A DNA stretch of 51,675 nt from Gammaproteobacteria bacterium. GTDB taxonomy: Bacteria > Pseudomonadota > Gammaproteobacteria > Steroidobacterales > Steroidobacteraceae. The notes below the pieces were generated by a model, which was given only the letters and a program-made list of their open reading frames with translations, was not told where the DNA came from and did not search any database. The translations under genes and the position numbers were made by a program. The stretch spans positions 1 through 51,675 of the forward strand of contig JAQGOC010000061.1 in the NCBI GenBank assembly GCA_028293805.1, written 5' to 3'. This document shows, one piece after another, positions 10,606 through 39,717 of the stretch; position 1 is the stretch's first letter, and every line of letters begins with the position of its first letter.

Positions 10606-10621
10606 GTGCTTGTCCTTGTCG

Positions 10622-11935: not shown

Positions 11936-11969
11936 ATAGCTATCCCGGCTCCTCGTCGTCGCGCCTGCC

Positions 11970-14345: not shown

Positions 14346-14451
14346 GAGTTTCTCTCTCCCAGTTATTCTAATAATTGGACCGATCACCGCAGTCGGCCTT
14401 CCGACAAAACGGCGCGGCGTGGCAGGACGGCGCTGCCGCTTCGGGTGCGCC

Positions 14452-14480
14452 ATGCGCGTGTGGACGGGATGCGCGTGTGG
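14452..14480. repeat. Two 12-bp direct repeats in the TBDR leader
   Basis: ATGCGCGTGTGG occurs at 14452-14463 and again at 14469-14480, separated by ACGGG (period 17). They lie 107-135 bases upstream of the TBDR start codon. Their exact identity and position suggest a regulator binding site, possibly for the adjacent OmpR-type response regulator, which classically binds direct repeats. No experimental basis. Confidence 0.5.
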
Positions 14481-14493
14481 CTTCCCATCAGCA

Positions 14494-14544
14494 TGGCGTG
14501 GCTCGCCACGCCAGCTACTGCCTGTTGCGGCATCAGGTGCCGCA
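14494..14544 (-). promoter_or_regulatory. Two adjacent perfect stem-loops upstream of the TBDR operon
   Basis: TGGCGTGG/CCACGCCA (14494-14501 and 14506-14513, 4-base loop) and TGCGGCA/TGCCGCA (14526-14532 and 14538-14544, 5-base loop) are both exact. If the operon transcript starts upstream of them, they would form a structured 5' leader; otherwise they could be protein-binding sites. I could not match the region to a known riboswitch consensus. Confidence 0.4.
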
Positions 14545-14607
14545 TCATGCGGGTCCGCAGCTTTCAAGAACCTGTCAGGGGAAGGAAAACTCTGGCGTCG
14601 AATGACC

Positions 14608-14636
14608 CAAAAAGGGGCACTGCTGCGCAAGCGCAG
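14608..14636 (-). terminator. Possible intrinsic terminator of the two-component operon
   Basis: Reading the minus strand just past the histidine kinase stop, the palindrome CTGCGCTTGCGCAG (14636-14623) is followed after nine bases by TTTTT (14613-14609). The stem is short and the T run a little distant, so this is a moderate call. Confidence 0.35.
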
Positions 14637-14662
14637 ATTCCGTCAAATGCGCGATGGCCCTA

Positions 14663-16522: not shown

Positions 16523-16645
16523 TCCGTCCACTCAGGCTGGAATTGCGCATAGGCACCCGGATGCCAGGGGTGATGCCCGCGAGAGCGGGTAGCTCGCCAC
16601 ACAGGAGAGCCTGACAGGCCCGATAGAACCCTGGCGAAGAAAACA

Positions 16646-21381: not shown

Positions 21382-22248
21382 TCACGTGTCATCTGACGCG
21401 ACAGCCGTGTCACGCGCCAATAGAGCAACGCCTGAGAGGCGGCGGAATTCCTCCCTGAAACTGGCCGAGGAGAGCATCAGCATGATGCGGCTCAACAGTG
21501 GCGTCGGCGTGGCGCGACGCAAGCGTCGCGCCTCTTCCTGCGAGGAGCGGAACGACAGCTCGCGCCAACCCAGGCGGCTGAAGAAATCAACGCTGTCGGC
21601 CGGGCCGAAGCGAAATTCGGCGCCGCGCAGCCTCGGACCCCACACCCGCCGCAGCATCTCCAAGGCCCGCGGGCCGGTCAGGTCGGTGAGCCACCACATG
21701 AACGAGGATTGTCCGTGCAAATCGCGCGCGAGGGCCGAAACCTGCGCCGGCGTCAGATAAACCAGCAGCCCCTCCGTGATTACCAATACACGCCGTGCTC
21801 CTGCACAGTGGGCGAGCACTTGCGCACGTGACTTCGGGTCGACGATATCGCCCTGCAGGGACTCGTATTGGCAGGCAGTCCGCTCGGAGCCGATGACACC
21901 GGCTTTGTATTCGAGTACTTCCGGCAGATCCACGTCCACCCACCTCACGGTGGACGGCAGTGCCAAACGCCAGGGGCGCGTGTCCAATCCGGCGGCAATG
22001 TTCAAGATGAGATCGACGTCGTGTCCACTCACTGTTTGCAGGATCAATTCGTCCAGCACCGAGGTACGAACCGCAATGCCCCGCGCGGTCATTTCCGCGG
22101 CGCCAATCTCGCGCGCAATGGCTTCACCTTCCGCTCCCGCCAGTCGTCGCGCAAACGCATCCTGGAAGAGGGCGTCGGGACGCTCCGTTTCCATCGCTCG
22201 GGCGTAGGCCATCCAACGGGCGGTATCGGAGAGGGTTTTGATAGGCAC
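21382..22248 (-). CDS. Class I SAM-dependent methyltransferase (leucine carboxyl methyltransferase-like, TIGR00027 type)
   Basis: 288 residues from a GTG at 22248 with GGAG six bases upstream. The N-terminus SDTARWMAYARAMETERPDA and the phrases FARRLAG, NIAAGLDTRPWRL (SAM-binding motif I), VDLPEVLEYK (motif II) and ITEGLLVYL (post-motif) are all characteristic of the family often annotated as PPM1/LCM-like O-methyltransferases, common in mycobacteria and proteobacteria. It should transfer a methyl group from SAM to a carboxylate of a small molecule or polyketide; the real substrate is unknown. It lies 68 bases after the polysaccharide deacetylase gene on the same strand and may be the tail of that transcription unit. 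Confidence 0.92.
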   Translation of the reverse strand: MPIKTLSDTARWMAYARAMETERPDALFQDAFARRLAGAEGEAIAREIGAAEMTARGIAVRTSVLDELILQTVSGHDVDLILNIAAGLDTRPWRLALPSTVRWVDVDLPEVLEYKAGVIGSERTACQYESLQGDIVDPKSRAQVLAHCAGARRVLVITEGLLVYLTPAQVSALARDLHGQSSFMWWLTDLTGPRALEMLRRVWGPRLRGAEFRFGPADSVDFFSRLGWRELSFRSSQEEARRLRRATPTPLLSRIMLMLSSASFREEFRRLSGVALLARDTAVASDDT

Positions 22249-22316
22249 TGTGACTCCGGAGAGGGCTGCTCGCTGAGCGAATTGTTGCTATCTGGATGAC
22301 TTCGGCGCAAGCGGGA

Positions 22317-23078
22317 TCACGGCTGATGAGCCGGCGGGCGTCGAGGGGCCGGAGGTCGCTTCAGGCGGCGGCCTACGTCGCAGTATGGTGTCGCGGCCCG
22401 GAGGAGAAATTTGAGGAGACCTTTGCTGCCGTTCACGGAGATGCGCGGCAACAGCAGGGGGTCGTCATTACGATGCGCACGGCCACGCTCCGTCGTGACG
22501 GCAATCTGGTAGCCCGCCTGCCCGACGCACGCGGCCAGCTCGGCATTGTGGAAACCGTAGGGGTAGCAGAAAGTCGCTATGGACAGTCCCGTCAGGTCGC
22601 GAAGCGCCCTACGGCTGTCTACGAGCTCGGCGAGCGCCGCCTCCCGCGACAGCTTGGTCATGTCGGGATGGGAACAGGTATGGGAGCCTACCTCGAATCC
22701 CGCATCCACCCAGGTTTTGAGTTGAGCGGGGGTCATCAGCGGCTTGCGGCCGCCCAGCCGCTCGGCATCCCAGGCGTTATAGGAGCCGATCAGCTCACTC
22801 ACCACGAAACAGGTCGCACCGTATCCGTACTCCCGCAGAATCGGTGCGGCATTCACGACGTTGTCCGCATAGCCGTCGTCGAAGGTCACCGCAACGCATC
22901 CAGCGGCAGTGCCCTCATTGAGCCGGCGGACGCCCTCTGAGAGGGATACTCCGAGCAGCCCCACGCGCCGCAGCCACCAGAGCTGCCGCGCAAACTGTTC
23001 CTGCGAGACATAGAGCTTCGGCAACAGCATGCCCGGGGGTACCGGAGCGACGTTGTGGTAATTCAGAATCGCCAGCAT
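22317..23078 (-). CDS. Polysaccharide deacetylase (NodB homology, CE4)
   Basis: The ATG at 23078 follows CTGGAACTGGCA and starts MLAILNYHNV, the usual first strand; an upstream extension of 74 codons overlaps the TBDR gene and is rejected. 253 residues. CE4 motifs are in order: MT1 TFDDGYADN (catalytic and metal Asp), MT2 GSHTCSHPDM (the two metal His), MT3 FCYPYGFHN and the downstream IAVTTERG. There is no signal peptide, so it may act in the cytoplasm or on a lipid-linked sugar. The reaction is removal of N-acetyl (or O-acetyl) groups from an oligosaccharide. It follows the second TBDR gene by 62 bases on the same strand and probably belongs with the GT4/PIG-L genes 4-8 kb away. Confidence 0.93.
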   Translation of the reverse strand: MLAILNYHNVAPVPPGMLLPKLYVSQEQFARQLWWLRRVGLLGVSLSEGVRRLNEGTAAGCVAVTFDDGYADNVVNAAPILREYGYGATCFVVSELIGSYNAWDAERLGGRKPLMTPAQLKTWVDAGFEVGSHTCSHPDMTKLSREAALAELVDSRRALRDLTGLSIATFCYPYGFHNAELAACVGQAGYQIAVTTERGRAHRNDDPLLLPRISVNGSKGLLKFLLRAATPYCDVGRRLKRPPAPRRPPAHQP

Positions 23079-23140
23079 TGCCAGTTCCAGGGTGAATTGT
23101 TCAAAAAATGGCCCATTCGACGGGCTCGAGGCGGGGCATG

Positions 23141-25471
23141 CTATCGAGTCGCCCCGAAACGCCAGGTGAAGCCGACGTCGACGGCGCGCGAGAACCAGTT
23201 TGTGGGGCCGGGCGTCAGCGGACTGCCTGTCTGATCGGACGGAACAAAGGCTATACAGCAGTGGTTTGCCCGCCGGGTAATGTTGGTCGCATCCATCCAC
23301 AGATCCAGAGCGCCATAGGAAAATGGCACGGTGCGCGCCAGGCGCAGATCGGCCGTAAAGTAATTTCCCCAGCGGGCGGAGTTGCGCGCGCCGATCGTAA
23401 GATCCGCAGGAAACGTCGGAGTCACGCTATTGACGGACACCGGCGTGCGCGGCCACCCCGTATGCCAGCCGAGCAACAGCGAGGCCGAGGTAACTCCATG
23501 GCGCCAGGCCAAACTCATATTGATGGCATGAGTCTGGTCCCAGCTGCGCAGCACGTCACGTCCGTAAAGGTCGTCCGTGGTGTGCGACAGAGCGTAAGCA
23601 CCGGAGAGCTGGATGTCATTGCCGAAGGATCGATGGGCGCTCAGCTCGACGCCCGCGGTTTCTGCGCCGCTGGGCGCCAGCCGCACCCTATCCGGAGAGA
23701 GCTCGGGTACGAGCGACAGTTTGTCCAGCAGGTTGTCGAAGTAGGCGTTGACCCTTGACCAACGCTTTCGATAAGCCTCCAGGCGCCATTGAGTCGCGGG
23801 TGAGCTTTCGTGCGCCACGCCGGCGATGAGGTCCACGGCACGGGTCGCCGGGTCGGGGGACGACTGGTTCTCCTCCGAACGCCACTCCCCGACACGCTGC
23901 GCCTGTGTGAAATATCCCCACGACCCGTACAGGTGCCACACGGGTGCCGGGTCGAAGCGCAGGTTGACTCTGGGGCTGACCTGGGCCCGGGCGCCGAAGT
24001 GTTGATAGTCCTGGCGATCCAGCCGGGCGCCGATTTCCAACTCGAAATCCTGCCAGCGCCGTCGCCCGGATCCGAACAGAGCCAATGTCGAGGATCGCGG
24101 CGTCTGGTGCGATGTCAGCGAGTTGTCGATCGGTATCCCAAAGCTTGCGGCGATGGCGGCATTGAGATGCTCGCTCCGGGCGAACATGAGGTCGGCACTT
24201 TCCACCGTTGCGGCGGCGCCGAAATCCCATAACAGCGTCGCGGAGGGCATGTAGGCCCAGTCCGTGCGCAGGTCCACGGTCGAGAAGTCACGGCGCTCGT
24301 CCAGCGAGCCGTTGGCGACACCGGCCAGGGCGAGTGAGCCGAAGCGAATGCGCTCGATACTGGTCATCGATACGGTCGTCCGCGAATGCAGGGCGCCGGT
24401 CGGAGTCCAATCAGCGGCGGCCCACGCGTACAGGTCACGGTCATGCACATTGGCCTGTTCGGTGTTGGAATCCGGAGAGAGCTGCACCCGATCGTCGAGC
24501 ATCAGCCAGCCCAATGTCCAGGCCGAAGTCGGGCTCGGCCGCCAGCGAACACGGCCGAGTGCATCGGCATAGGCCGGTTCGCCGAAATCGCCGTTTACCG
24601 GCTTCAAGGCGAGGTTATGCGTGCTGTGGCGCGCTGTGGCCAGCCACTCGACCGGCCAATCTTCACCGCGGCCTACGGTCGACAAGTCGTAGCTCAAGAG
24701 GCTGGCGCCGACGCGGTGTTCGTAGCCCGACTCCACCGACCGTGGCGCGACATCGATGACCCCGGCGGACCGGGTGCCGTATCTGACGGGGAATCCGCCG
24801 GTATACACATCGATCCGCTCCACGGCCGCGGGATCGAATGCGCTGATCAGATTTTGAAAATTCTTGAAGTGAAACGGATCGGTCAGAGGGATGCCGTCGA
24901 ACCGCACGAGTACGTCGTCGAGGAGCGCGCCGCGCACGTACGGTCGCGAGGAGAGATTAGTTGTGACCCCCGGCGCGGAGCGCATCGCCCGCAGCGCGTC
25001 CTCTTGCGCGCCGGGCGCCTGCTCGAGACCGCGGCGTGCAAAGGAGGTGGATTCGCCGATGGTGCTGTCGACAAATGCATAACGGCTCGCAAACACCGAC
25101 ACTTCATCGAGCCGTGGAGCGTTTGGAGCGAGCGCAGTGCCCTGCAATGGCGGCAGCCGCCGTGGGGGTTCGGTGTGCGAGGGGGGCGCCCGCGTCACGA
25201 TATAGCGGCGCTGTCCCTCACTTCGCAGCAGCAGGTGGTGTGCGGCGAGGGCCGCAACCGCCCGCGACATCAGGTCCGATTCCCGCGGTGCCGCGGGTGC
25301 TTCAAGATCCGGCGGCACGAGATCGGAGCTATAAAGGACTTCGATGCCCGTCGCACTCAGGGAGCGCAGCAAATCGGTGACACTTGTTGGCGCGGCAACC
25401 GCCGTCTTGCTGGCGCAGATCGCGAGCAGCCCGGCCCTGATCCAGCGGGTGCGCCGGCGCTCTGTGGCCAC
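23141..25471 (-). CDS. TonB-dependent receptor/transducer with N-terminal STN domain (second cassette)
   Basis: 776 residues from a GTG at 25471. A short signal peptide (MATERRRTRWIRAGLLAICA, to about residue 26) precedes an STN domain (about 28-95: SVTDLLRSLSATGIEVLYSS). A Pro-rich linker leads to the plug (about 115-250: LDEVSVFASRYAF, RPYVRGALLDDVLVRFDGIP, VERIDVYTGGFPVRYGTRSA) and a barrel of about 500 residues. The end (VDVGFTWRFGATR) has the usual amphipathic last strand but three extra residues after Phe-Gly rather than a terminal Phe, which is unusual for BamA recognition. The STN domain and the upstream sigma and FecR genes mark it as a signal-transducing receptor. A GT4 gene and a polysaccharide deacetylase gene flank the cassette, hinting at a glycan ligand. 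Confidence 0.92.
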   Translation of the reverse strand: MATERRRTRWIRAGLLAICASKTAVAAPTSVTDLLRSLSATGIEVLYSSDLVPPDLEAPAAPRESDLMSRAVAALAAHHLLLRSEGQRRYIVTRAPPSHTEPPRRLPPLQGTALAPNAPRLDEVSVFASRYAFVDSTIGESTSFARRGLEQAPGAQEDALRAMRSAPGVTTNLSSRPYVRGALLDDVLVRFDGIPLTDPFHFKNFQNLISAFDPAAVERIDVYTGGFPVRYGTRSAGVIDVAPRSVESGYEHRVGASLLSYDLSTVGRGEDWPVEWLATARHSTHNLALKPVNGDFGEPAYADALGRVRWRPSPTSAWTLGWLMLDDRVQLSPDSNTEQANVHDRDLYAWAAADWTPTGALHSRTTVSMTSIERIRFGSLALAGVANGSLDERRDFSTVDLRTDWAYMPSATLLWDFGAAATVESADLMFARSEHLNAAIAASFGIPIDNSLTSHQTPRSSTLALFGSGRRRWQDFELEIGARLDRQDYQHFGARAQVSPRVNLRFDPAPVWHLYGSWGYFTQAQRVGEWRSEENQSSPDPATRAVDLIAGVAHESSPATQWRLEAYRKRWSRVNAYFDNLLDKLSLVPELSPDRVRLAPSGAETAGVELSAHRSFGNDIQLSGAYALSHTTDDLYGRDVLRSWDQTHAINMSLAWRHGVTSASLLLGWHTGWPRTPVSVNSVTPTFPADLTIGARNSARWGNYFTADLRLARTVPFSYGALDLWMDATNITRRANHCCIAFVPSDQTGSPLTPGPTNWFSRAVDVGFTWRFGATR

Positions 25472-25502
25472 GGATCAGATCGTCAGGTAGAAGTGCCCAG
25501 GT

Positions 25503-26519
25503 TCATGGCGGCGATTGTATCCAGATTGTATCGCCGCGTAGTTCATATGCGAGCGTGGTGGTCGCAAGCACGTTTGCCAGTGAATCGAGTGGCGCCCGTC
25601 CACGTACCGTGCCGTGCAGAATCGTCCGTTCCGCAACCTCTCGAGCGTGTGCATCGGCAAATTCGAGCCGCTGTCCGAGCTCGCGAGTCACCCATTGCAG
25701 GTAGCCGAGGAGCGCCTGTCCTTCGATGTCGTAATCCGGTGTGAGGGCGGCAACCCACAGCCAGTCACCGCCGTAGGTCGGGATCGGGTGCTGCGATACC
25801 TCTCGGTCCGGGGTGGCGAGAAGCTCGGTGCCGGCGTCTGCCACGACGTCGCTCGATCCGGTGTGCATGCGAATCCGGCCTTCGCGGACCCGGACTCGAA
25901 CCTTTTGCCCCTCGCTCAGCACTTCGAATGCCGTCCCGAGGTGTTCGAGCAGGCCGGCCTGAGTCAGTACGCGCAGGCGGCCCGAGCCACCCAGCGCCGG
26001 CGGCTTATCCACATAGATCATGCCGCGTTCGAGGCGAATCTCGGTTGCACTCGTGATCTCGACAACGCTGTTGCCCGCGATCCGCAGTGTTCCGCCGCTG
26101 GATAACGCGACCAAAGTCGGTCCCTGTGCAGTGAATTTGTCGCCCGTCCGCAGGACGTCTCCTGCGTGCAGAGCATGATGAAGGACGAGCGCGGACCGAA
26201 CCTCGACATCTCCGGTTTCCGAACGAGCTATCGATCCAAATGAAACAGGAGCCGTCACCGGCCACGCGAACCAGCCCAGCGTCAGAGTCGAAATGGCTAC
26301 CGCGGCGGCGAGCGATGTCCACAGCCAGCGTCGCGATCGCAAGGGACGATGTTCCGTCGCAACCGACGCTCGCCATTCGTGCGCCACCGCTTCGCGCATG
26401 CGTGCGAGTGCCCGTGGATCCATTGGGCGCGTGCGCAACGCATCAGTCAGCGCGCTATCAACCTCTGCATCCGATCTCTCTTCACCGTCGCCGGAGTGCC
26501 GCTCAGTCATATTGGGCAA
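25503..26519 (-). CDS. FecR-family regulator (second cassette)
   Basis: 338 residues. The N-terminal cytoplasmic part is short and acidic (NMTERHSGDGEERSDAEVDS, then ALTDALRTRPMDPRALARMR). One membrane helix lies at about 66-86 (RWLWTSLAAAVAISTLTLGW). The FecR domain spans about 110-235 (DVLRTGDKFTAQGPTLVALS, GTLRIAGNSVVEI, GMIYVDKPPALGGSGRL, LGTAFEVLSEG). The C-terminal 75 residues (LLGYLQWVTRELGQRLEFAD, then TILHGTVRGRAPLDSLANVL) form a second STN-like module. Such C-terminal STN-like parts are thought to pair with the receptor's STN. It overlaps the sigma gene by 17 bases and precedes the receptor by 31 bases. The N-terminal sigma-binding region differs from the first cassette, so cross-talk is unlikely. 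Confidence 0.92.
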   Translation of the reverse strand: MPNMTERHSGDGEERSDAEVDSALTDALRTRPMDPRALARMREAVAHEWRASVATEHRPLRSRRWLWTSLAAAVAISTLTLGWFAWPVTAPVSFGSIARSETGDVEVRSALVLHHALHAGDVLRTGDKFTAQGPTLVALSSGGTLRIAGNSVVEITSATEIRLERGMIYVDKPPALGGSGRLRVLTQAGLLEHLGTAFEVLSEGQKVRVRVREGRIRMHTGSSDVVADAGTELLATPDREVSQHPIPTYGGDWLWVAALTPDYDIEGQALLGYLQWVTRELGQRLEFADAHAREVAERTILHGTVRGRAPLDSLANVLATTTLAYELRGDTIWIQSPP

Positions 26520-27144
26520 TCCCGTTCAGCCTGTCATCGCTATCCTCGAGCCAGCGCTCGCGGAACGCTTCGCGCGCGCGCGCCAGAAGTGATTGCGCTG
26601 CTATGGAGGTGAGGCCGAGCAGATGAGCTATCTCGTCAACGGACAGGCCATCGCCGTATTTCGCCTCGAGGGCCAGCGCATACCGTTCCGGAAGTGAGTT
26701 CAAGGCGCGGATGACGGCGCCCCGGTACGATTCAGCGTCTGCCGCCGCCGCTGGCTCGAATTGAGTTGGCGCGAGAAGTTGTTGCGACAGGCGCAGCACG
26801 ACGTCGGGCTCATCCAGGCTGTCGTGGCCAGGACGACGTGCCGCCTTGCGGGAGAAGTCGGCAAGCTCATGGCGGCAAATCTGCGTCAGCCAGGTCAAGA
26901 GCGAGGCCTCGCCGCGATAGCCGGCTAGATTGCGAACCGCCTTGATCAAGGTGTTTTGAACGATGTCTTCCACGCTGGCAACATCCAGGCCGGAGCGGCG
27001 CGAGGCGTAGGCCACCAGGCGCGGAGCGCTGGCTTGAAAAAATTCTTCGAAGGCACGTTGCTCGCCCGCACCCATCCTGGCAACCAACGCACGATCCGAC
27101 TCGTACACCCTGAAACGTCCTAGGCACCCCAATGGCCAGGACAC
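26503..27144 (-). CDS. ECF-family RNA polymerase sigma factor (second cassette)
   Basis: 213 residues with sigma region 2 at about 35-100 (FFQASAPRLVAYASRRSG, VEDIVQNTLIKAVRNLAGYR, LLTWLTQICRHELADFSRK) and region 4 at about 140-200 (RALNSLPERYALALEAKYGD, GLSVDEIAHLLGLTSIAAQS, LLARAREAF). The linker is longer than in the first ECF factor. Its region 2 with ASRRSGLDVASVEDIVQNT resembles ECF groups that use proteolysed or FecR-like partners. The ATG at 27144 gives about 15 residues before region 2 helix 1; a later ATG (codon 24) is possible. It is the first gene of the sigma-FecR-TBDR set and begins 84 bases after the stop of the GT4 gene on the same strand. Confidence 0.94.
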   Translation of the reverse strand: MSWPLGCLGRFRVYESDRALVARMGAGEQRAFEEFFQASAPRLVAYASRRSGLDVASVEDIVQNTLIKAVRNLAGYRGEASLLTWLTQICRHELADFSRKAARRPGHDSLDEPDVVLRLSQQLLAPTQFEPAAAADAESYRGAVIRALNSLPERYALALEAKYGDGLSVDEIAHLLGLTSIAAQSLLARAREAFRERWLEDSDDRLNGIAQYD

Positions 27145-27228
27145 CTAGCTTAGACGTCACTCCCGCCGGATACCAATCGATGTGCCCTGCGTAACAGGTG
27201 AATGTCGCCATCGTTCGATTCCCGTCAG

Positions 27229-28374
27229 TTAGCGCGGAGCCTCGGTAATCATCGTGCCGCGCAGCCCCTGCCGGCGCGAGGCGCTTCGATTTCCGGCGGG
27301 CTCGGCGAGCGCAGCTATGAATTCGGCGGCAATCTTGTGAGCGGCGAAGTGGCTGCGCGCATAAGCCCGCCCGGCCCGCGCGAATCGAACCCGCAAATCG
27401 CGGTCGTCGTGCAGGCGCCTGATCGCCCGCCGCAGGGCGCGACGATCGTTCGGGGGTACCAGCAGCCCTGAGCGACCCGGGGCGAAGGCTTCCGAGATTC
27501 CGCCCATTTGCGTCCCGATCACCGCGACTTCGCTGGCCTGCGCCTCGGCCAGCACGCGACAGAAGGTTTCCGGTGCGACGCTGGGCGCCACCAGGAGATC
27601 CATCGCCGCATAGAATTCGCCGATGCTGGGCGTCCAGCCGACGAAGTGACAGCGGCCGCCGACCGGAGAGGCGGCGGCCTTGCGCTGCCATTCAAGCAAT
27701 TCCGCGCCGTTCCCCACACACAGCAGCCTCAGGTGCGGTTCGTGGGACATCAGCGGCACGAGCGCATCCCAAAGCACTCCGACGCCCTTTTCGAGCTCGA
27801 CACGCCCCACGAAGCCGATCACGAAGTCCTGCGCGGCGATGCCCAGTTCCCGACGAATCCTCGCACGCTGCGGCGCGGCCGACCGCAGGTCTTCGACGTC
27901 GATGGGGTTGTAAAGGACCCCCAGTCGAGCCGCCGGAGCGCCCCGCGACACGAGGCGCGTACGCGCGAATTCGGAGACTACGAAGAAACGGTCGACGAGG
28001 CTCGGCAGCACGCATCGTGTCATCCAGCGCTTCACGTCGGGAAGATGCCTGAACAAGGCAACGCGCACGCCCATGACCCGGGCGATGGCCCAGAGCGTCC
28101 AATAGAGCTTGCCGCGATTCGTCACGACCCAGTCGGGCCGCTCCGCGCGGATCGCGCGCAGGATTGTCAGGATGCCGCGCGGATCGACGCCGCCCCGAAA
28201 CGCGGTCAGGTGGACCCGAACTCCGCGGTCAGCCAGCAGCTCCGCGACCGGACTGTCGCGCTTCACGACCACCGATACGCAATGACCCGTTTCAGCCAGC
28301 GCGCGTGCGAGCGATACCAGGTGCTGCTCCGTGCCCCAGCCATTGCGGCTGGCATCGACAAACAGGATTTTCAA
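27229..28374 (-). CDS. Glycosyltransferase family 4 (first copy)
   Basis: 381 residues, GT-B fold. The N-terminal acceptor domain begins MKILFVDASRNGWGTEQHLV with the glycine-rich loop typical of GT4. The C-terminal donor domain carries GFVGRVELEKGVGVLW, VGWTPSIGEFYAAMDLLVAPS and the EX7E motif (ETFCRVLAE), followed by GGISEAFAPGRSGLLVPPND. Retaining enzymes of this group transfer sugars from nucleotide-sugars to lipid-linked or polysaccharide acceptors at the cytoplasmic face. The sugar is not predictable. It is divergent from the PIG-L gene (228 bases apart) and is followed on the same strand by the ECF cassette, so the glycan and signalling genes could share a transcript. Confidence 0.94.
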   Translation of the reverse strand: MKILFVDASRNGWGTEQHLVSLARALAETGHCVSVVVKRDSPVAELLADRGVRVHLTAFRGGVDPRGILTILRAIRAERPDWVVTNRGKLYWTLWAIARVMGVRVALFRHLPDVKRWMTRCVLPSLVDRFFVVSEFARTRLVSRGAPAARLGVLYNPIDVEDLRSAAPQRARIRRELGIAAQDFVIGFVGRVELEKGVGVLWDALVPLMSHEPHLRLLCVGNGAELLEWQRKAAASPVGGRCHFVGWTPSIGEFYAAMDLLVAPSVAPETFCRVLAEAQASEVAVIGTQMGGISEAFAPGRSGLLVPPNDRRALRRAIRRLHDDRDLRVRFARAGRAYARSHFAAHKIAAEFIAALAEPAGNRSASRRQGLRGTMITEAPR

Positions 28375-28602
28375 TGACGCCTCTCAATGCTACCGACCGT
28401 CGCCCGCGCGATAACCTTTCGGACGCGCAGGTCGACTCGACTTCGACCCATTGGACGTCGAGGCAGAGGTCGATCAATCGGTGCCGTGGACAGATCGGCA
28501 GGCGCGCCTCGCCCGGGCACGACACCTGCTTTTTCCGATTCGGCTTGAAGAGGGCTGTATGATGCGGTTCGCATCGCGAGCGGACGCTACAGCGAAGCAC
28601 AC

Positions 28603-29418
28603 ATGAGCGGTCAGGCGATCAGTGCGCAACTCGCCCGCGGCGAGGTTATTGCCGAGCCGGTGGCGGTGGTGGTCGCCCATCCGGATGACGAGATCATCTC
28701 GCTTGGCGGCAGCCTTGCGCGCTTGAAGCGCCTGCGCCTCGTACACCTCTCGGATGGGGCGCCGCGTGACATGGAAGATGCGCACCGCGAAGGATTCTCG
28801 ACCGCGCGGGAGTACGCGGCCGCGCGTCAGCGTGAACTATACGAGGCGTTGCGGGTTAGCGGAGCGGCACCTGAGTCGTGTAGCGCCGAGAACTGCCCGG
28901 ATAAAGAAGTAGTCGCCTACCTGTCGAGAACAACTCGACGCTTGGCCGACGTGCTCACGCAAGTGCACGCGGTGATAACTCATCCGTACGAGCACGGCCA
29001 TCCCGATCACGACGCGACCGCATTCGCCGTGCATGCGGCTTGCCAGCTTCTGCGTCGCAGGCATACGCGTGTACCGCCAATCCTGGAGCTGACTTCGTAT
29101 CATGTCCGGGATGGACAGATCATTCGCGGTGAGTTCTGGCCGGATCCGTTTCGGCACGAGGACGTAAACGTTTTGAGTCATGCCGAGCGCACACTCAAGG
29201 CACGTGCGGTCGACTGCTTTGTGACCCAGAGAGCGGTGCTCGGAGAGTTTCCCCTGGCTGTCGAGCGCACGCGCGTTGCGCCACTGTATGATTTTACTAG
29301 ACCGGCGCCACCTGGTGTCGCGTTCTATGATCTCCTGGGTTGGAGCCTCACCAGCGAGGAATGGCGCAGGCAAGCCGCACGCGCGAGCGAAGAGCTGGGG
29401 CTCGGGGGCGCGTTTTGA
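28603..29418 (+). CDS. PIG-L family N-deacetylase (LmbE-like)
   Basis: 271 residues. The zinc/active-site motif AHPDDE lies at about residues 29-34 (VVVAHPDDEIISLGGSLARL). The second metal region THPYEHGHPDHDATAFAVH at about 126-144 provides the third ligand. These are the defining features of the PIG-L/LmbE/MshB metal-dependent N-acetylglucosamine (or related) deacetylases. There is no signal peptide, so it acts in the cytoplasm, probably on a lipid-linked or nucleotide-linked amino sugar. Its stop overlaps a TTG start of the next glycosyltransferase (TTGA, 29415-29418), implying translational coupling. First gene of the rightward operon PIG-L - GT4 - FemAB-like - GNAT. Confidence 0.95.
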   Translation: MSGQAISAQLARGEVIAEPVAVVVAHPDDEIISLGGSLARLKRLRLVHLSDGAPRDMEDAHREGFSTAREYAAARQRELYEALRVSGAAPESCSAENCPDKEVVAYLSRTTRRLADVLTQVHAVITHPYEHGHPDHDATAFAVHAACQLLRRRHTRVPPILELTSYHVRDGQIIRGEFWPDPFRHEDVNVLSHAERTLKARAVDCFVTQRAVLGEFPLAVERTRVAPLYDFTRPAPPGVAFYDLLGWSLTSEEWRRQAARASEELGLGGAF

Positions 29419-30566
29419 GTCTTACGGTGCTCAACGTCGCGTTTCCGTTTGCGCCGGTCAACATGGATCCCGTAGGAGGTGCGGAACAGGTTCTGGCGCA
29501 TATCGATCGCGCGCTGGCGATAGCCGGCCACCGCTCGATTGTCATCGCCCCGGCAGGCTCGCAGACCGCGGGTTGCCTGGTTGCCATACCGAGCATCGCG
29601 GGCATCGTCAGCGATGCTGCGCGCCGGGCGACACATGCAGCCGTTCGCGAGGCGCTCGCCCGAGTGCTCCAGCGCGACCGGGTGGATGTGGTCCATCTGC
29701 ACGGCATCGACTTTCATTCGTACCTTCCATCGGCTGGTCCACCCATACTCGTGACGCTTCACATGCCGCTCGAGTGGTATCCGCCCGCGGCGTTGCAGAC
29801 GCTCGTGCCGGGAATCTGGCTGCAACCTGTTTCGACAAGTCAGGCGAGCAAGGCGGCGCGACATGTAAAGCTCCTGCCCCCCATGGAGAACGGGGTGCAG
29901 GCGGACTCATACCCGCAGGTTCGCAAACGCAGCTTCGCGCTCGTGTTGGGTCGGGTCTGTCCCGAGAAGGGGTTTCACCATGCCCTTAACGCCGCCAAGC
30001 TCGCCGGTGTGCCCCTTCTGATCGCGGGCACGGTCTTCCCTTGGCCCGAGCACCAGTCCTACTTCGAACGGCAGATCGCTCCGGGCCTGGATCATCAGCG
30101 GCGCTGGCTTGGCCCGGTGCGCGGCTATCGCAAACGCTGGCTATTGGCTGCGGCACGCTGCCTGCTCGTGCCGAGTCTCGCCTGCGAGACGTCCTCACTC
30201 GTAGCGATGGAAGCGCTGGCAGCGGGTACACCCGTAATTGCCTACGATACAGGCGCTTTGCCCGATATCGTGGACCATGGCACCACAGGCTACATTGTGA
30301 AGAATAGCGCCGCGATGGCAGAGGCCATTGGCAGCGTAGAGCGCATCCAGCCTGAGCATTGCCGCCGGGCCGCTCGTGAGCGGTTCTCTCTCGAGCGCTG
30401 CATGGCCGGTTACCTGCGTCTGTATGAACGCCTCAGCAGCGCGGCAGACAGCTTGGGGTGCTCCGATCACGTCTCGGAGCGGCAACGCTCGCATTCGAGC
30501 AGGCGCGTATTCCCGGGTACGCCGACTGATTCGGGCAGTGGAGCTTCCGATGATGTATGGCAGTGA
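29415..30566 (+). CDS. Glycosyltransferase family 4 (second copy)
   Basis: I place the start at TTG 29415, overlapping the PIG-L stop (TTGA); it gives LSLTVLNVAFPFAPVNMDPV, the expected first strand. A GTG at 29430 is an alternative; the ATG at 29340 lies inside the PIG-L gene. About 383 residues. GT4 marks: PVGGAEQVLAHIDRAL (N-terminal loop), LVLGRVCPEKGFHHALNAAK, the EX7E motif (ETSSLVAME), then AGTPVIAYDTGALPDIVDHG. It should be a cytoplasmic retaining glycosyltransferase. Its 3' end overlaps the next gene's start (30550) by 17 bases. The last 40 residues after the GT domain are low-complexity and Ser-rich and may serve mainly as overlap sequence. Confidence 0.92.
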   Translation: MSLTVLNVAFPFAPVNMDPVGGAEQVLAHIDRALAIAGHRSIVIAPAGSQTAGCLVAIPSIAGIVSDAARRATHAAVREALARVLQRDRVDVVHLHGIDFHSYLPSAGPPILVTLHMPLEWYPPAALQTLVPGIWLQPVSTSQASKAARHVKLLPPMENGVQADSYPQVRKRSFALVLGRVCPEKGFHHALNAAKLAGVPLLIAGTVFPWPEHQSYFERQIAPGLDHQRRWLGPVRGYRKRWLLAAARCLLVPSLACETSSLVAMEALAAGTPVIAYDTGALPDIVDHGTTGYIVKNSAAMAEAIGSVERIQPEHCRRAARERFSLERCMAGYLRLYERLSSAADSLGCSDHVSERQRSHSSRRVFPGTPTDSGSGASDDVWQ

Positions 30567-31656
30567 TGAGCGCAACGGGTGCGAGGCGATGCGAGGCGGT
30601 GTCGAACGCGCACGCGGGGCGAGTTTTCCCAGGCAGGATTCGCAGACTGCCGCAGCCGAACTCACGATTGAAGAACTGACCGACGCCGCGGAACTGGAGC
30701 CGTTGCGCACCGAATGGTCCGGACTGTTCGACGCTTCAAAGGAAGCTACTCCGTTCCAGTCTCCCGAGTGGCTGCTTCCCTGGTGGCGCTGCTTTGCAGG
30801 GCGGAGCCTTTGGGTCCTCGCCGCGCGCCTGCGTGGCCGACTCGTGGGCCTCGCGCCGTTGTTCATCTACACGGATCCGGCAAGCAAGGAGCGACGAGTC
30901 TGTTTCATTGGGAATGGGATCAGCGACAGCCTCGACATCCTGGTTGCCGGGGAGGAAGGCGGCCCCGTCGCTCAGGCCGTGTTTGATCACATTGCGCGGC
31001 GAGCGCGGCTGTGGGACACATGCGATTTTCGCGATCTCCCACCTGGCTCTGCGGTTCTGCGCGCGCGTGTTGCGCTCGAGCTCTCGGAGCAGGTGAAGCC
31101 TGAGGAGCCGTGTCCGGTGTTGCAGTTACCGCGGACTCCCGATCGGATAGTGCCGGCACTCGCGCGCCGGCTACGGGACAATCTGCGCCGTAGCGAACGT
31201 CGCGCATGGGAGCAGGGGGAGGTGCTCCACGAGATTGCAACACCGGCAACACGTGCTGAGCTGCTGGGCGCTGTATTCCAACTTCATGCCGCTCGATGGA
31301 GCGCGCGCGGAGAAACAGGCGTCCTCGATACGCGAGCCCATCTGCAGTTTCATGAAGAAGCCACGGCCGGGCTCCAGGCGCGTGGTCTGCTGCGCTTGCA
31401 CGTTCTGCGTATCGGTTCGCATGTTGTCGCCGCGCAATACATTCTGCGGCACCAGCAGCGTGCCTATTTGTACATCACGGGATTCGATCCGAGCTTTGCT
31501 GCCCTCAGCCCCGGGGCACTTCTCACCCGACGAGTCCTCGAACAGGCGGTGCGCGACGGCGATCGCGAATTCGACTTCCTGCGCGGGCGGGAGCGTTACA
31601 AATATCTTTGGGGCGCCGTGGATCGGCCCCAATATCGCCGCCGGGTGTGGAAATGA
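30550..31656 (+). CDS. FemAB/BcsL-like GNAT acyltransferase
   Basis: The ATG at 30550 has GGAG six bases upstream and is chosen over an earlier in-frame ATG inside the GT4 gene. 368 residues. A tandem-GNAT layout is visible: an N-terminal half with PFQSPEWLLPWWRCFAGRSL and LRGRLVGLAPLFI, and a C-terminal half with RDNLRRSERRAWE, VLRIGSHVVAAQYILRHQQR, YLYITGFDPSFAALSPGALL and FDFLRGRERYKYLWG. This is the family annotated as cellulose-biosynthesis BcsL / FemAB-like N-acyltransferase, also found in exosortase-type polysaccharide clusters. It likely acylates or aminoacylates the amine exposed by the deacetylases in this locus; that role is inference. Overlaps the preceding GT4 gene and, by ATGA, the next GNAT gene. 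Confidence 0.9.
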   Translation: MMYGSDERNGCEAMRGGVERARGASFPRQDSQTAAAELTIEELTDAAELEPLRTEWSGLFDASKEATPFQSPEWLLPWWRCFAGRSLWVLAARLRGRLVGLAPLFIYTDPASKERRVCFIGNGISDSLDILVAGEEGGPVAQAVFDHIARRARLWDTCDFRDLPPGSAVLRARVALELSEQVKPEEPCPVLQLPRTPDRIVPALARRLRDNLRRSERRAWEQGEVLHEIATPATRAELLGAVFQLHAARWSARGETGVLDTRAHLQFHEEATAGLQARGLLRLHVLRIGSHVVAAQYILRHQQRAYLYITGFDPSFAALSPGALLTRRVLEQAVRDGDREFDFLRGRERYKYLWGAVDRPQYRRRVWK

Positions 31657-32180
31657 GACACGCGGCAGGACAAAGCTCGGGCCCCGGTCTGTCCGCCGCC
31701 GCGTCGGCTCCCCTTATTCGGCTTTGCCGTGAGGAAGATCTGCCGCTGCTCGAGTGGTTCGGTGCCTTCACGCATCACCGCCTGATCATCAATGAGGCTT
31801 TCGCGCTCCAGCGTGCCGGCCAGGTCGTGATGCTGGTCGCCGACCGCAACGGGTTTCCTGTCGCCCAGGCGTGGCTCGATTTACGGCTGCGCAGGGACCG
31901 ACACGGGCCGACCGTCTGGGCCGTGCGGGTCATCGATGGGCTCCAGGGACTGGGCATCGGTGCGCAGCTGATGGCCGAGACGGAGGAGATCGCGCGGCAG
32001 AAGGGATATGGTCTTCTGGAGTTGGCTGTTGATAAAGGGAACGCGAGCGCGCTGCGGTTCTACGAACGGCTCGGCTGGCATCTGGTCGGAGATCGAGTCG
32101 ATAGCTACAGCTACGTCACGCCCGACGGTGTCCGGGAGAGGATTCCGCTGAACGAATGGGTGCTCGCCAAGGACCTCTAG
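31653..32180 (+). CDS. GNAT-family N-acetyltransferase
   Basis: The ATG at 31653 overlaps the upstream stop (ATGA), so I prefer it to the ATG 45 bases earlier. 175 residues. The GNAT acetyl-CoA loop is visible (VIDGLQGLGIGAQLMAETEE), preceded by the strand VWAVRVI and followed by LELAVDKGNASALRFYERLG, the standard motif B with FYERLGW. It acetylates an amine of an unknown acceptor using acetyl-CoA, in the cytoplasm. As the last gene of the PIG-L - GT4 - FemAB - GNAT operon it may re-acylate a deacetylated sugar. Its stop TAG is shared with the stop of the convergent next gene (CTAG, 32177-32180). Confidence 0.92.
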   Translation: MRHAAGQSSGPGLSAAASAPLIRLCREEDLPLLEWFGAFTHHRLIINEAFALQRAGQVVMLVADRNGFPVAQAWLDLRLRRDRHGPTVWAVRVIDGLQGLGIGAQLMAETEEIARQKGYGLLELAVDKGNASALRFYERLGWHLVGDRVDSYSYVTPDGVRERIPLNEWVLAKDL

Positions 32181-32989
32181 ACCATCGCAGGGCTGAGCCC
32201 CACGCGACGGTAGAGTTCAGGCAGATGTTCTTGCCAATGCTCGATCCGCAGCTCGGTCGCCGGCCGGTCATAGTAGCGCCACGGCAGCTCCCGGGCATTG
32301 AGTCCGACGAAATGCGCGCCGCAGCTTCCAAGGTGCCCCTGGTGCGGATAGAACGGTGAACAGATCGTTACTTCCCGCGTCGTGACATACAGGGGCGGCC
32401 TGTCAAGCGACAGCGCCGCGATCTGCATCCCCTGCTCATCGAGCTCGGAATCGAGTTGCGCGGGCAGGCGACTCAACACACGTCCCAGCGCGCGCTCCAG
32501 ATCGAAGCCCGCCGGCGTGCCGCGAATTCCGGAGTTGCGCGGCTCGGGCCCGCAGAGCTGCGCGAAAGCACCGTGGCCAGCGGCAACATCCTCGGCCACG
32601 AGGCAGGCCTGCGCAGAGTCGGTAAGCCAGCGCCGGACTGCTTTCGGCTCGCTCCAGAGGATCACGTCATTGTCGAGTGCCAACTCGCAGCGATCCGCAA
32701 ACGCAGACAGTGGCAGGAATTTCCATGCCACGCCATCGGCCATTCCCGCGCCGAGATGACGTCTCAGTGTGGGTGCAACCTCGCGCGGTGCTTCCCGCCA
32801 CTGCGTCTGCTCCGGCACCGGCCCCGTTCTGCGCCGCGCTTCTTCGAGCGCGATGCTGTTCACGTATACAACGTAGGCGGCCGCCGGTCCGAACACGCGG
32901 AACGCCCCATGGATCGAGAGCTTGAGGGCTTCGAAGCCTCGCAAGCTCACGTCCCCGATGGTCCACCGAATTCCGAGAGAGGTTGCCAT
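32177..32989 (-). CDS. Uncharacterised protein, possibly a GT-A-type glycosyltransferase
   Basis: About 270 residues from the ATG at 32989 (MATSLGIRWTIGDVSLRGFE); a longer start 57 bases upstream is also open. I do not recognise the family. Visible features: an N-terminal alpha/beta stretch (AAAYVVYVNSIALEEARRR) and the acidic motif LALDNDVIL near residue 125 that could be a metal-binding DxD of a GT-A enzyme. A Trp/Tyr-rich C-terminal half follows (SPFYPHQGHLGSCGAHFVG, PWRYYDRPATELRIEHWQEH). No membrane segment or signal peptide. Its convergent position against the glycan operon, sharing one stop tetranucleotide, suggests it belongs to the glycan locus. Function is a guess. Confidence 0.75.
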   Translation of the reverse strand: MATSLGIRWTIGDVSLRGFEALKLSIHGAFRVFGPAAAYVVYVNSIALEEARRRTGPVPEQTQWREAPREVAPTLRRHLGAGMADGVAWKFLPLSAFADRCELALDNDVILWSEPKAVRRWLTDSAQACLVAEDVAAGHGAFAQLCGPEPRNSGIRGTPAGFDLERALGRVLSRLPAQLDSELDEQGMQIAALSLDRPPLYVTTREVTICSPFYPHQGHLGSCGAHFVGLNARELPWRYYDRPATELRIEHWQEHLPELYRRVGLSPAMV

Positions 32990-37627: not shown

Positions 37628-37815
37628 AAACAGGTGCAGCGCTGTTGCCCGATGACGGCAGCGATCTCGCGACGCCGCTGGTGCGGCGCCATGAATACAA
37701 CAAGTTCGAAGGGGAGCAATGGACCTCTTACCGGCAGCCGCCCGCGCTTGGCGGCAGGCCCGCTGTTGTATCGCGAGCTGCTCCTGGCCGACAACAATTC
37801 GCGAAAGGAGAAGAC

Positions 37816-39717
37816 ATGAAGATCGACACATTGCTGGGCACCGCACTGCCGGTGCTCGCCGCGAGTCTTTGGATGAGCGGCGTGACGCAGGCGGCGCCGG
37901 CCGCAAGGGCGGTTCTGGCGGGCAGCGCCCCACCCTGGGCGACGAGCCAAAATCTCGTGGGCGGCACGGATTCGACCACCGACGTTGGCTTTCGCGTCTA
38001 TTTGGGCTGGCAGGATGAGGCAGGGGCCGCCGCTCTGGCCGCGGCCGTGTCCAGCCCCGGAAACGCTTCGTATGGCCACTATCTCGCGCCGACGCAGTTC
38101 AGGAAGCAGTTCGCGCCGGCGGCCAACGAGGTTGCACAGGTGCAGAACTGGTTGCGAGCTCAAGGATTGACCGTGCAGTACACCCCAAAGAACGGCCACT
38201 ACATTTCGGCCGAGGGCACCGTGGCCCAGCTGCAGACGGCATTTGGCGTGACGTTCGGAAATTATCTCGTGCGCGGGCAAGTCGTGCGCGCCCCCACGGC
38301 CGATGTCTCGATTCCCGCCTCGCTGGCCAATGTCGTGCATGCCGTGATCGGCCTCGACGAGAGTTATCAGTTCGTCCAGACCCACCGCCGGGCCGACGCC
38401 AACGCGCCACCATCCGCCGGGTTCAGAAACGCGCCCCCGCTCTCGGCTTATTGGGCCCAGTTGCTCTCGCCCTATGCGTTTCCGAGCGGATTTACGGGCG
38501 TGGCGCTGCCCTCCGTGCCGTGGGCCATCAAAGGCCATACGCCGGAGCAGATCAAGGGCGCGTACGGGATCTCCGGTTACGACGGGGCCGGCCAGAGCGT
38601 TGCGATCATCGACGCCTACGCGTCGCCGACGATCCTCCAGGACGTAAATCAGTGGTCGGCAAATCGCGGCTTGCCGACGATGAATGCTTCGCAGCTGGTG
38701 CAGGTCGTCCCGCCGGGGGTATACAAGCGGCCGCAGAATCCCCGGCAGGACCCGCAGGGATGGTACGGCGAGGAGACGTTGGATGTCGAAGCGGTGCACG
38801 GCATGGCCCCCGCCGCGAAGATCGTGTACGTCGGCGCCCCCAACAACTATCAGGACCTCGATGCAGCGATGAATCACGTCGTGGACGAGCATCTCGCCCA
38901 GATCGTTACAAACTCCTACGGGTTCTCGACGGAGCTGCTCCCGCCGGGTTACGTCAAACCCATGGAAGATACGTTGATTCAAGCGGCCATCGAGGGGATC
39001 GGAGTGTATTTCTCCTCCGGGGACAACGGAGATGAGACCTCGACAGTGGGCTTTGCGACGGTTGACTGGCCGGCCGCGAGTCCGTGGGTCACTGCGGTGG
39101 GCGGTACGAGCCTGGGAGTCAGCGCAGCCAACACACGCGCCGTGGAGACAGGATGGGGAACCAGCAACTACCGATGCAGCTCCTCGCCCCCGTCCTGCAC
39201 AAGGACCGGATGGCTATACGGTGCCGGCGGTGGTGTCAGCGTAATCTTCGACGAACCGGCCTATCAGCGTAGTGCCGGACTCAATCTGTCCGGTCGCGGC
39301 GTGCCCGACGTCGCGGCGGTTGCTGATCCTCAGACCGGGCTGCTCGTCGGGCAGACGCAGACGTTTCCCGACGGCTCCTACTATGACGAGTACCGGATCG
39401 GCGGCACGAGCCTGGCGAGTCCCATCTTCGCAGGCTTGATGGCCCTCGCGGACCAGAGGGCGGGCCACCCGCACGGGTTTGCGAATCCGCTGTTCTACGC
39501 GAATCCGAGCGCCTTCTATGATGTCCTCAGTGTCAAGACGGCCGTGGCTCGCCGCAATTTCGTCAACGGTGTGGACGCGACGAACGGGACCGCCGATTTC
39601 CTGCGAACCTTCGATGATTATTCAGGCTCTCCCACCCAGCATACGAATGCAGGGTGGGACAATGTAACGGGTCTCGGGACTCCCGGAGCGTCGTTCCTGA
39701 GCCTCATCGGGCAGTAA
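37816..39717 (+). CDS. S53-family serine-carboxyl peptidase (sedolisin/kumamolisin-like), secreted
   Basis: The ATG at 37816 sits behind AAAGGAGAAGAC, a strong ribosome-binding site. 633 residues. A signal peptide (about 1-26) is followed by an activation prodomain of about 170 residues (FRVYLGWQDEAGAAALAAAV, SYGHYLAPTQFRKQFAP, LQTAFGVTFGNY). The catalytic domain begins near 245 (IKGAYGISGYDGAGQSVAII). Its Glu/Asp pair is in GEETLDVE (Glu319, Asp323), the oxyanion Asp in SSGDNGD (Asp403) and the nucleophile in GGTSLASP (Ser532). The Ca-site signature GWDNVTGLGTP closes the protein. These enzymes are autoactivating acid endopeptidases secreted for protein breakdown. A CSSSPPSC pair may form a disulfide. 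Transcribed alone from its own promoter and closed by a hairpin. Confidence 0.95.
   Translation: MKIDTLLGTALPVLAASLWMSGVTQAAPAARAVLAGSAPPWATSQNLVGGTDSTTDVGFRVYLGWQDEAGAAALAAAVSSPGNASYGHYLAPTQFRKQFAPAANEVAQVQNWLRAQGLTVQYTPKNGHYISAEGTVAQLQTAFGVTFGNYLVRGQVVRAPTADVSIPASLANVVHAVIGLDESYQFVQTHRRADANAPPSAGFRNAPPLSAYWAQLLSPYAFPSGFTGVALPSVPWAIKGHTPEQIKGAYGISGYDGAGQSVAIIDAYASPTILQDVNQWSANRGLPTMNASQLVQVVPPGVYKRPQNPRQDPQGWYGEETLDVEAVHGMAPAAKIVYVGAPNNYQDLDAAMNHVVDEHLAQIVTNSYGFSTELLPPGYVKPMEDTLIQAAIEGIGVYFSSGDNGDETSTVGFATVDWPAASPWVTAVGGTSLGVSAANTRAVETGWGTSNYRCSSSPPSCTRTGWLYGAGGGVSVIFDEPAYQRSAGLNLSGRGVPDVAAVADPQTGLLVGQTQTFPDGSYYDEYRIGGTSLASPIFAGLMALADQRAGHPHGFANPLFYANPSAFYDVLSVKTAVARRNFVNGVDATNGTADFLRTFDDYSGSPTQHTNAGWDNVTGLGTPGASFLSLIGQ

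Follow-up and report, generated by a model that had tools for sequence, protein, structure and literature searches.

In enterobacteria, lipid A modification by the arn operon and eptA is under the two-component control of PmrAB and PhoPQ; in Acinetobacter, NaxD is an example of the exposure of a lipid A amino sugar by a transferase plus a deacetylase; and the XrtA/PEP-CTERM exopolysaccharide cluster contains CE4, GT4 and FemAB-like proteins. Known cell-surface signalling (CSS) pathways mainly control the uptake of iron carriers (PMC11637429); the same account describes the interaction of receptor and anti-sigma factor in the Fox system. We analysed a 51,675-nucleotide stretch of DNA (hereafter the window; contig JAQGOC010000061.1) from a gammaproteobacterium of the family Steroidobacteraceae, in which an extracytoplasmic function (ECF) sigma factor, a FecR-type anti-sigma factor and a TonB-dependent receptor (TBDR) are encoded between a GT4-family glycosyltransferase (GT4a) and a CE4 polysaccharide deacetylase, and in which the sigma and GT4a genes are each preceded by a copy of the same promoter element. 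The window is the complete contig C135, one of the 392 that make up a metagenome-assembled genome of 5.77 Mb (63.7% GC, 89% completeness, 4.9% contamination). This genome was analysed within a set of 217 genomes of the family; genomes and loci of the comparison are labelled G and L below.

The promoter and the probable signalling relay

Reading of the DNA upstream of sigma factor genes brought out a recurrent element, GATTGAT-15 nt-CGTCTAA. In the window, promoter 1 (GATTGAT-15 nt-CGTCCAA; 28451..28479, reverse strand) stands in front of GT4a and promoter 2 (GATTGGT-15 nt-CGTCTAA; 27150..27178, reverse strand) in front of the sigma gene, both as exact matches to the pattern GATTGRT-N15-CGTCYAA. 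Whole-genome motif searches took exact matches only, so that weaker sites may exist; on this footing the 5.77-Mb genome holds two matches, both of them here, for an expectation of 0.06 per genome from composition and none for the reversed pattern, and the single genome match of the strict GATTGAT form is the GT4a site. The window holds no further copy even with two mismatches allowed. In the congener G186, too, every exact match in the genome (three in number) falls within this locus, one ahead of sigma, one ahead of GT4a and a divergent one between them. Comparison of the GT4a promoter of the window with that of G186 finds the half-sites identical at 14 of 14 positions, the spacer at 6 of 15 and the flank at 21 of 37. 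The third copy in G186 (L102:13216-13244) points away from sigma and faces the 3' end of GT4a; no gene was called downstream of it.

The promoter type recurs at sigma genes: among 54 sigma loci, which are related to one another, it occurs within one mismatch in 26 and within two in 32, as against 0 of 1080 shuffled upstream regions within two mismatches (L106, too near a contig end, is excluded, and L103 and L009, one contig to judge from length and matches, are counted once). With spacings of 13-18 allowed, the spacing is 15 in all but two of the listed sites. An opposite-strand copy within one mismatch is found in 14 of the 54 loci; L044:5479-5507, L049:10780-10808 and L176:1661-2344 are among the places where such copies, or the sites before T_hemolysin-type genes described below, were noted. 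Other -35 elements (GAAGGAT, GACCGAT/GACCGGT) occur at L060, L062, L065, L121 and elsewhere; the 15-nt spacing is kept there and the -10 element is in most cases CGTCTAA-like, which suggests parallel sub-regulons.

The sigma gene probably starts at the GTG at 27108 rather than at 27144, since the orthologue alignment starts there and the -10 element of promoter 2 lies at 27150-27156; with this start the gap between GT4a and sigma is 120 bases, with the promoter inside it. An earlier note on this DNA had reported gaps of 84, -17, 31 and 62 bases, which do follow from the open reading frame (ORF) coordinates, and had concluded that one transcript could carry both the signalling and the glycan genes; because sigma-type promoters precede the sigma gene and GT4a separately, that argument is replaced by one from two promoters. 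Signalling and glycan genes are nevertheless likely to be linked, because G186 keeps the order GT4-sigma-FecR-TBDR-CE4 and the GT4 gene has the rare promoter of the sigma gene. The sigma factor itself very probably controls GT4a.

An ECF sigma factor (26503..27108; PF08281, region 4, 3e-12; PF04542, region 2, 3e-11), an anti-sigma factor with a FecR domain (25503..26510; PF04773, 2e-8) and a TonB receptor (23141..25471; plug 1e-10, barrel 2e-10), all on the reverse strand, form the gene set characteristic of CSS. The model of this anti-sigma factor (mean pLDDT 79.5) combines a FecR beta-domain with an STN-like C-terminus of the CCSSD fold. In Foldseek it matches PupR (6ovk_R; E 3.6e-11, prob 1.00), with a TM score of 0.34 by query length and 0.52 by target length and an rmsd of 12.0, and it also matches a Parabacteroides anti-sigma factor. 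Because of these matches to the PupR cell-surface signalling domain and to the Parabacteroides protein, the relay is assigned to the FecA/FecR/FecI type.

The receptor carries an N-terminal, STN-like extension in front of its plug. The earlier note had described an STN receptor with a sigma factor and FecR; sigma, FecR and TBDR stood, and the STN domain fell below threshold, none of 11 close orthologues matching PF07660 (STN) at E <= 0.01. Among 36 of 39 more distant receptor orthologues (three excluded by length), five matched PF07660 at E <= 1; the best reached 7e-4, and the first member scored 18.2 bits for a cut-off of 28.4. Profile comparison of the receptor N-terminus with the FecR C-terminus was not significant, and receptor N-terminus profiles gave weak unrelated matches, or receptor plug matches, among solved structures. 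Sequence searches of solved structures with FecR, with the TBDR and with a GT-A-like protein described below returned none at the limits used. The segment in front of the plug is likely to be a signalling extension.

Predicted promoter targets in related genomes

The form GATTGAT-N15-CGTCYAA has 84 listed sites in 47 of the 217 family genomes, as against one match to the reversed pattern. It is present in 37 of 78 genomes with the receptor and in 10 of 139 without, a co-occurrence whose p-value, like that for GT4a and CE4 below, ignores kinship. Measured from 43 receptor places, chosen as those of motif-bearing genomes, 40 of the 84 sites lie within 10 kb of a receptor match on the same contig and 44 do not.

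A census in the GATTGRT form, drawing on loci from the family and from other families of the order, comprises 98 distinct sites: 18 precede sigma genes, two precede GT4a, three precede ORFs labelled FecR that are probably mis-called, and 58 precede other targets, which were clustered and named from scanned members (Pfam and NCBIfam on 21 target proteins, one or a few per cluster and not every member); some target ORFs may be called in the wrong frame or stand as much as 500 bases away from their site. Four targets are lipid A phosphoethanolamine transferases of the EptA type, of which three were scanned, two scoring above the NCBIfam cut-off (562 and 531 bits; cut-off 500) and one identified by Pfam. 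One is a UDP-4-keto-pentose/UDP-xylose synthase (561 bits, cut-off 294). Arn-like proteins fall below their cut-offs: one ArnB-like target (581 bits, cut-off 631), three ArnT-like targets (scanned score 110 bits, cut-off 567) and an ArnC-like member of a two-target cluster (105 bits, cut-off 529). Further targets are six Omp85-like proteins, five LtaS-like sulfatases, two LAB_N proteins and two PAP2 proteins (single ORFs, both scanned). Known lipid A enzymes are thus under this promoter in relatives and not in the window genome, where the exact sites are those of sigma and GT4a; by PF08019, EptA is absent from G186, G185, G106 and G253 and present in five other tested genomes. Because the promoter in relatives precedes lipid A and lipopolysaccharide (LPS) genes (EptA, Arn-like, LtaS-like, PAP2, LAB_N), among others, control of envelope surface chemistry is most likely the common purpose of these putative regulons.

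Two modules and their conservation

The region consists of two modules that meet here, divergent at 28374/28603. Module A comprises the leftward genes (21382-28374, reverse strand): GT4a (27229..28374; PF00534, 6e-30), the three signalling genes, CE4 (22317..23078; PF01522, 6e-31) and, beyond the span of the earlier note, a last gene for an S-adenosylmethionine-dependent methyltransferase (21382..22248; TIGR00027, 106 bits, cut-off 93.6), which follows the TBDR in the congener G185 and CE4 in G186. The genes named earlier are all present and, with the exception of a possible GT-A protein in module B, match their families. The proposed search for the order GT4-sigma-FecR-TBDR-CE4 in other genomes found it conserved in G186, at 64-84% identity: module A recurs there gene for gene in the same order and strand, with GT4a in the same place (identities GT4a 77%, sigma 84%, FecR 64%, receptor 69%, CE4 82%, methyltransferase 80%), and beyond GT4a, where the window has PIG-L, come genes that look like those of a two-component system. 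Among the 217 genomes, the closest receptor orthologues after that of G186 are those of G185 (59%), G253 (54%) and G211 (53%); in the last two, receptor and sigma genes are divergently oriented. Anti-phage defence was rejected, PADLOC giving no match among the six proteins submitted; a sigma-70 promoter scan found none and is uninformative here.

The exact order does not generalize. Across the order, 41 loci were compared: L009 and 40 of the 70 listed places outside the window genome, each with at most 20 kb of flank. Sigma, FecR and receptor stand in this order in 40, including L073 with its receptor 4.6 kb off; a GT4a-like gene is near the cassette in six (L053, L068-L071, L076), and a CE4 homologue (E <= 1e-4) is beside it in none. 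G185 likewise has sigma-FecR-TBDR-methyltransferase without GT4a or CE4: the 1.6 kb 5' of its sigma gene hold a different ORF, and no homologue of GT4a (E <= 1e-45) or CE4 (E <= 1e-30) was found in that genome. The common arrangement is therefore the trio without these glycan genes, as would be expected of nutrient- or siderophore-type signalling in which the sigma factor serves its own receptor only and GT4a and CE4 are passengers. That explanation is unlikely, given the conserved sigma-type promoter before GT4a in two species, the envelope genes that follow this promoter type in relatives and the 44 of 84 sites with no receptor match within 10 kb on their contig.

At L068-L071 and L076 (G134, G126, G114, G146 and G058), glycosyltransferase-like genes in what appears to be an operon come after a paralogous sigma-FecR-receptor set; behind the set at L068-L071 there is, by eye, an ABC-transporter-like gene too.

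Module B begins with four forward-strand genes: a PIG-L deacetylase (28603..29418; PF02585, 1e-19; 58% identical to an orthologue in module B of G266), a second GT4 glycosyltransferase, GT4b (29415..30566; PF00534, 1e-21; orthologues of 59-70% in G185, G186 and G266), a FemAB/Mig-14-like acyltransferase (30553..31656; PF13480, Acetyltransf_6, 2e-33) and a GNAT acyltransferase (31653..32180; PF00583, 3e-13; orthologues of 50-62% in the same three genomes). A GT-A-like protein on the reverse strand (32177..32989) is conserved at 55-78% identity in three other genomes. The suggestion that it might be a GT-A glycosyltransferase is favoured by Foldseek, in which each of the 50 listed matches of a weak model (mean pLDDT 59.5) is to a glycosyltransferase, glycogenin and LgtC, which are GT-A folds, being among them (best E 7e-4, TM about 0.36); it gains nothing from Pfam, which gave no match at E <= 0.1.

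Traced through the acyltransferase and the GT-A-like protein, module B proves to be rare: the GT-A-like protein occurs in four of the 217 genomes (E <= 1e-10), always with GT4b, GNAT and a FemAB-like gene, and PIG-L is detected in two of the four, the window and G266. The earlier note had proposed that the two deacetylases and two N-acyltransferases replace N-acetyl groups by another acyl group, and the whole region could accordingly be read as one sensor-controlled glycan-remodelling pathway with two deacetylases, two acyltransferases and two or three glycosyltransferases. Physical adjacency speaks for this, as do the roughly 230 bases of intergenic DNA from which GT4a and PIG-L diverge. In G185, G186 and G266, however, module B lies on contigs other than that of the receptor; different contigs do not prove distance where genomes are fragmented, but the fetched flanks of both modules in G186 hold other genes, module A continuing there beyond GT4a into its two-component-like genes; and no copy of the promoter turns up in module B, even at two mismatches. 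A single pathway is thus highly improbable and the acyl exchange is not upheld: to judge from these comparisons, the block of PIG-L, GT4b and the acyltransferases merely adjoins the sigma relay and forms no part of it, so that the proposed link between signalling and glycan genes holds for module A and not for PIG-L and the acyltransferases.

Module B is a rare conserved unit whose combination of GT4, PIG-L and N-acyltransferase recalls the logic of mycothiol-type biosynthesis. A mycothiol or bacillithiol pathway was rejected, the GT4 and PIG-L proteins scoring far below the MshA/BshA and MshB/BshB cut-offs; only the logic of GT4 plus PIG-L plus GNAT is similar. Elsewhere in the window (8560-16531 and 37645-39717) are a TPR-sulfotransferase protein, an M20 peptidase, a second TonB receptor, a histidine kinase and a pro-kumamolisin-type protease.

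GT4a and CE4 flank the sigma cassette in the window and in G186, and their wider distribution supports a joint function, without favouring a particular history. CE4 homologues (E <= 1e-30) occur in 10 of the 217 genomes and GT4a homologues (E <= 1e-45) in 20, with both in five (p 7.5e-4). In G321 and G313, of another genus, the two are adjacent with a 4-base overlap, and the fetched stretch holds no match to the sigma cassette; in G212, decayed remnants of both lie side by side in the order of the window. The cassette may have been inserted into a GT4-CE4 pair, but the order is reversed (CE4-GT4 in G321 and G313, GT4-...-CE4 in the window) and the GT4a tree, which groups the proteins of the window and G186 (94/97), does not resolve the CE4-linked pair of G321 and G313 as their sister.

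CE4 matches solved CE4 enzymes in a sequence search of solved structures, and starts directly with its catalytic domain, with no signal peptide apparent by eye. It bears some resemblance to PgaB (53 bits, cut-off 322) and IcaB (46 bits, cut-off 248), and GT4a to XrtA-system enzymes (TIGR03088, 114 bits), all far below the cut-offs; by eye, CE4 homologues in G106, G110 and G201 lie among radical-SAM, GT2 and other glycan-like genes. These likenesses would suit a module A that makes or modifies an exopolysaccharide, poly-N-acetylglucosamine-like or XrtA-type, rather than LPS. We consider this rather unlikely: the scanned genes of module A include no synthase, polymerase or exporter, the exosortases of the genome are on other contigs, and the targets of the promoter in relatives include lipid A genes.

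Proposed working and comparison with known systems

Taken together, the locus probably encodes a relay of the FecA/FecR/FecI type with a small regulon of envelope-sugar enzymes, here GT4a and probably CE4; the membership of CE4 in the regulon, taken by itself, is somewhat better than an even guess. Several observations weigh against this reading. The letters R and Y of the pattern were chosen after the window sites had been seen (Y is also found at sigma genes of relatives); 22 of the 54 sigma loci lack the motif within two mismatches; and 10 motif-bearing genomes have no receptor at E <= 1e-60. The exact order of module A is known from one other species, G186; GT4a and CE4 are missing from the cassette of G185; and in G106 the homologues of the cassette, CE4 and GT4a lie on three separate contigs with no exact motif. 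CE4 has no promoter of its own, neither it nor GT4a has an assigned substrate, and by PF08019 the window genome has no EptA. In the census, 17 of the 98 sites have no called downstream gene within the limits, and many targets are not envelope-sugar genes: nine in a cluster represented in the scan by a T_hemolysin protein (PF12261), five in a group with a cytochrome-c-like scanned member, two proteins of the DUF6502 type, a thioredoxin-like protein, a P450, an amine oxidase whose site is 444 bases away, and proteins without a family. Finally, the 62-base gap between TBDR and CE4 contains a weak terminator-like hairpin with a T-run (23125-23111). Terminator-like matches in the region are at the level of chance (8 seen, 8.6 expected; fold z -0.17), and the scan of the corresponding gap in G186 gave no such hairpin; a terminator between TBDR and CE4, of the internal kind that the earlier note had considered, is thus not borne out above chance.

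By analogy with the FecA/FecR/FecI paradigm, the relay would work as follows. The receptor would sense a ligand or state, its N-terminal extension would act on FecR, and the ECF sigma factor would be released to start transcription at GATTGRT-N15-CGTCYAA before its own gene and before GT4a; the promoter is identified by sequence and conservation, and its use is inferred. Promoter 2 would provide positive feedback on sigma, FecR and receptor, and CE4 and the methyltransferase would probably be reached by read-through. Because the nucleotide sugars that serve GT4 enzymes are cytoplasmic and CE4 begins with its catalytic domain, both would act on an intermediate at the cytoplasmic face: GT4a would add an N-acetylated sugar to an envelope glycan, either LPS core or one on a lipid carrier, and CE4 would then remove the acetyl group to leave a free amine, an outcome resembling that of the Arn and EptA modifications, whose genes follow this promoter type in relatives. 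This chemistry is offered tentatively, its chances being a little short of even.

As a broader and equally tentative proposal, which we would hesitate to back at even odds, the widespread relays of the family may sense the state of the outer-membrane surface rather than serve nutrient uptake, and may control, via GATTGAT-15-CGTCYAA, a lineage-variable set of lipid A and LPS enzymes (EptA, Arn-like, LtaS-like, or GT4a with CE4) in place of control of the PmrAB/PhoPQ type. If the promoter does tie the relay to LPS-modifying enzymes, an outer-membrane sensor would directly control outer-membrane chemistry, and EptA/Arn-type genes in these bacteria may be wired unlike those under textbook two-component control. 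With its short sequence and nearly constant spacing, the promoter predicts targets genome by genome.

Among described systems, the XrtA/PEP-CTERM cluster was rejected as the identity of the locus: model matches are weak, no XrtA-system family model passes its cut-off here, and the exosortases lie on contigs C246 (main) and C266, the former also carrying another CE4 and GT4. The view that the locus is distinct from an exosortase cluster therefore stands, and the idea that no exosortase is to be seen applies to the locus and not to the genome. With NaxD-type modification the locus may share its logic, an N-acetyl sugar being putatively added and then deacetylated, in different families (GT4 and CE4). 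With the PmrAB/PhoPQ regulons the targets in relatives overlap (EptA and ArnA/B/C/T-like proteins, and the envelope genes PAP2 and LAB_N); the locus differs in its ECF sigma factor and TonB-receptor sensor, in having a GT4 as the target in the window and in its genome's lack of a PF08019 EptA. In the titles and abstract openings of open-licence PubMed Central literature, we found no sigma system with FecR and a TonB receptor that controls lipid A modification. With FecA-FecR-FecI, FoxA-FoxR-FoxI and PupB-PupR-PupI the locus has its gene set in common, and its FecR model matches the C-terminal domain of PupR; unlike in the iron-related CSS systems, a second promoter precedes a glycosyltransferase, the promoter in relatives precedes lipid A genes, and the STN domain of the receptor is below threshold. 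The system thus appears to be a variant of cell-surface signalling, new in its apparent tie, through the promoter, to genes of envelope-glycan modification.

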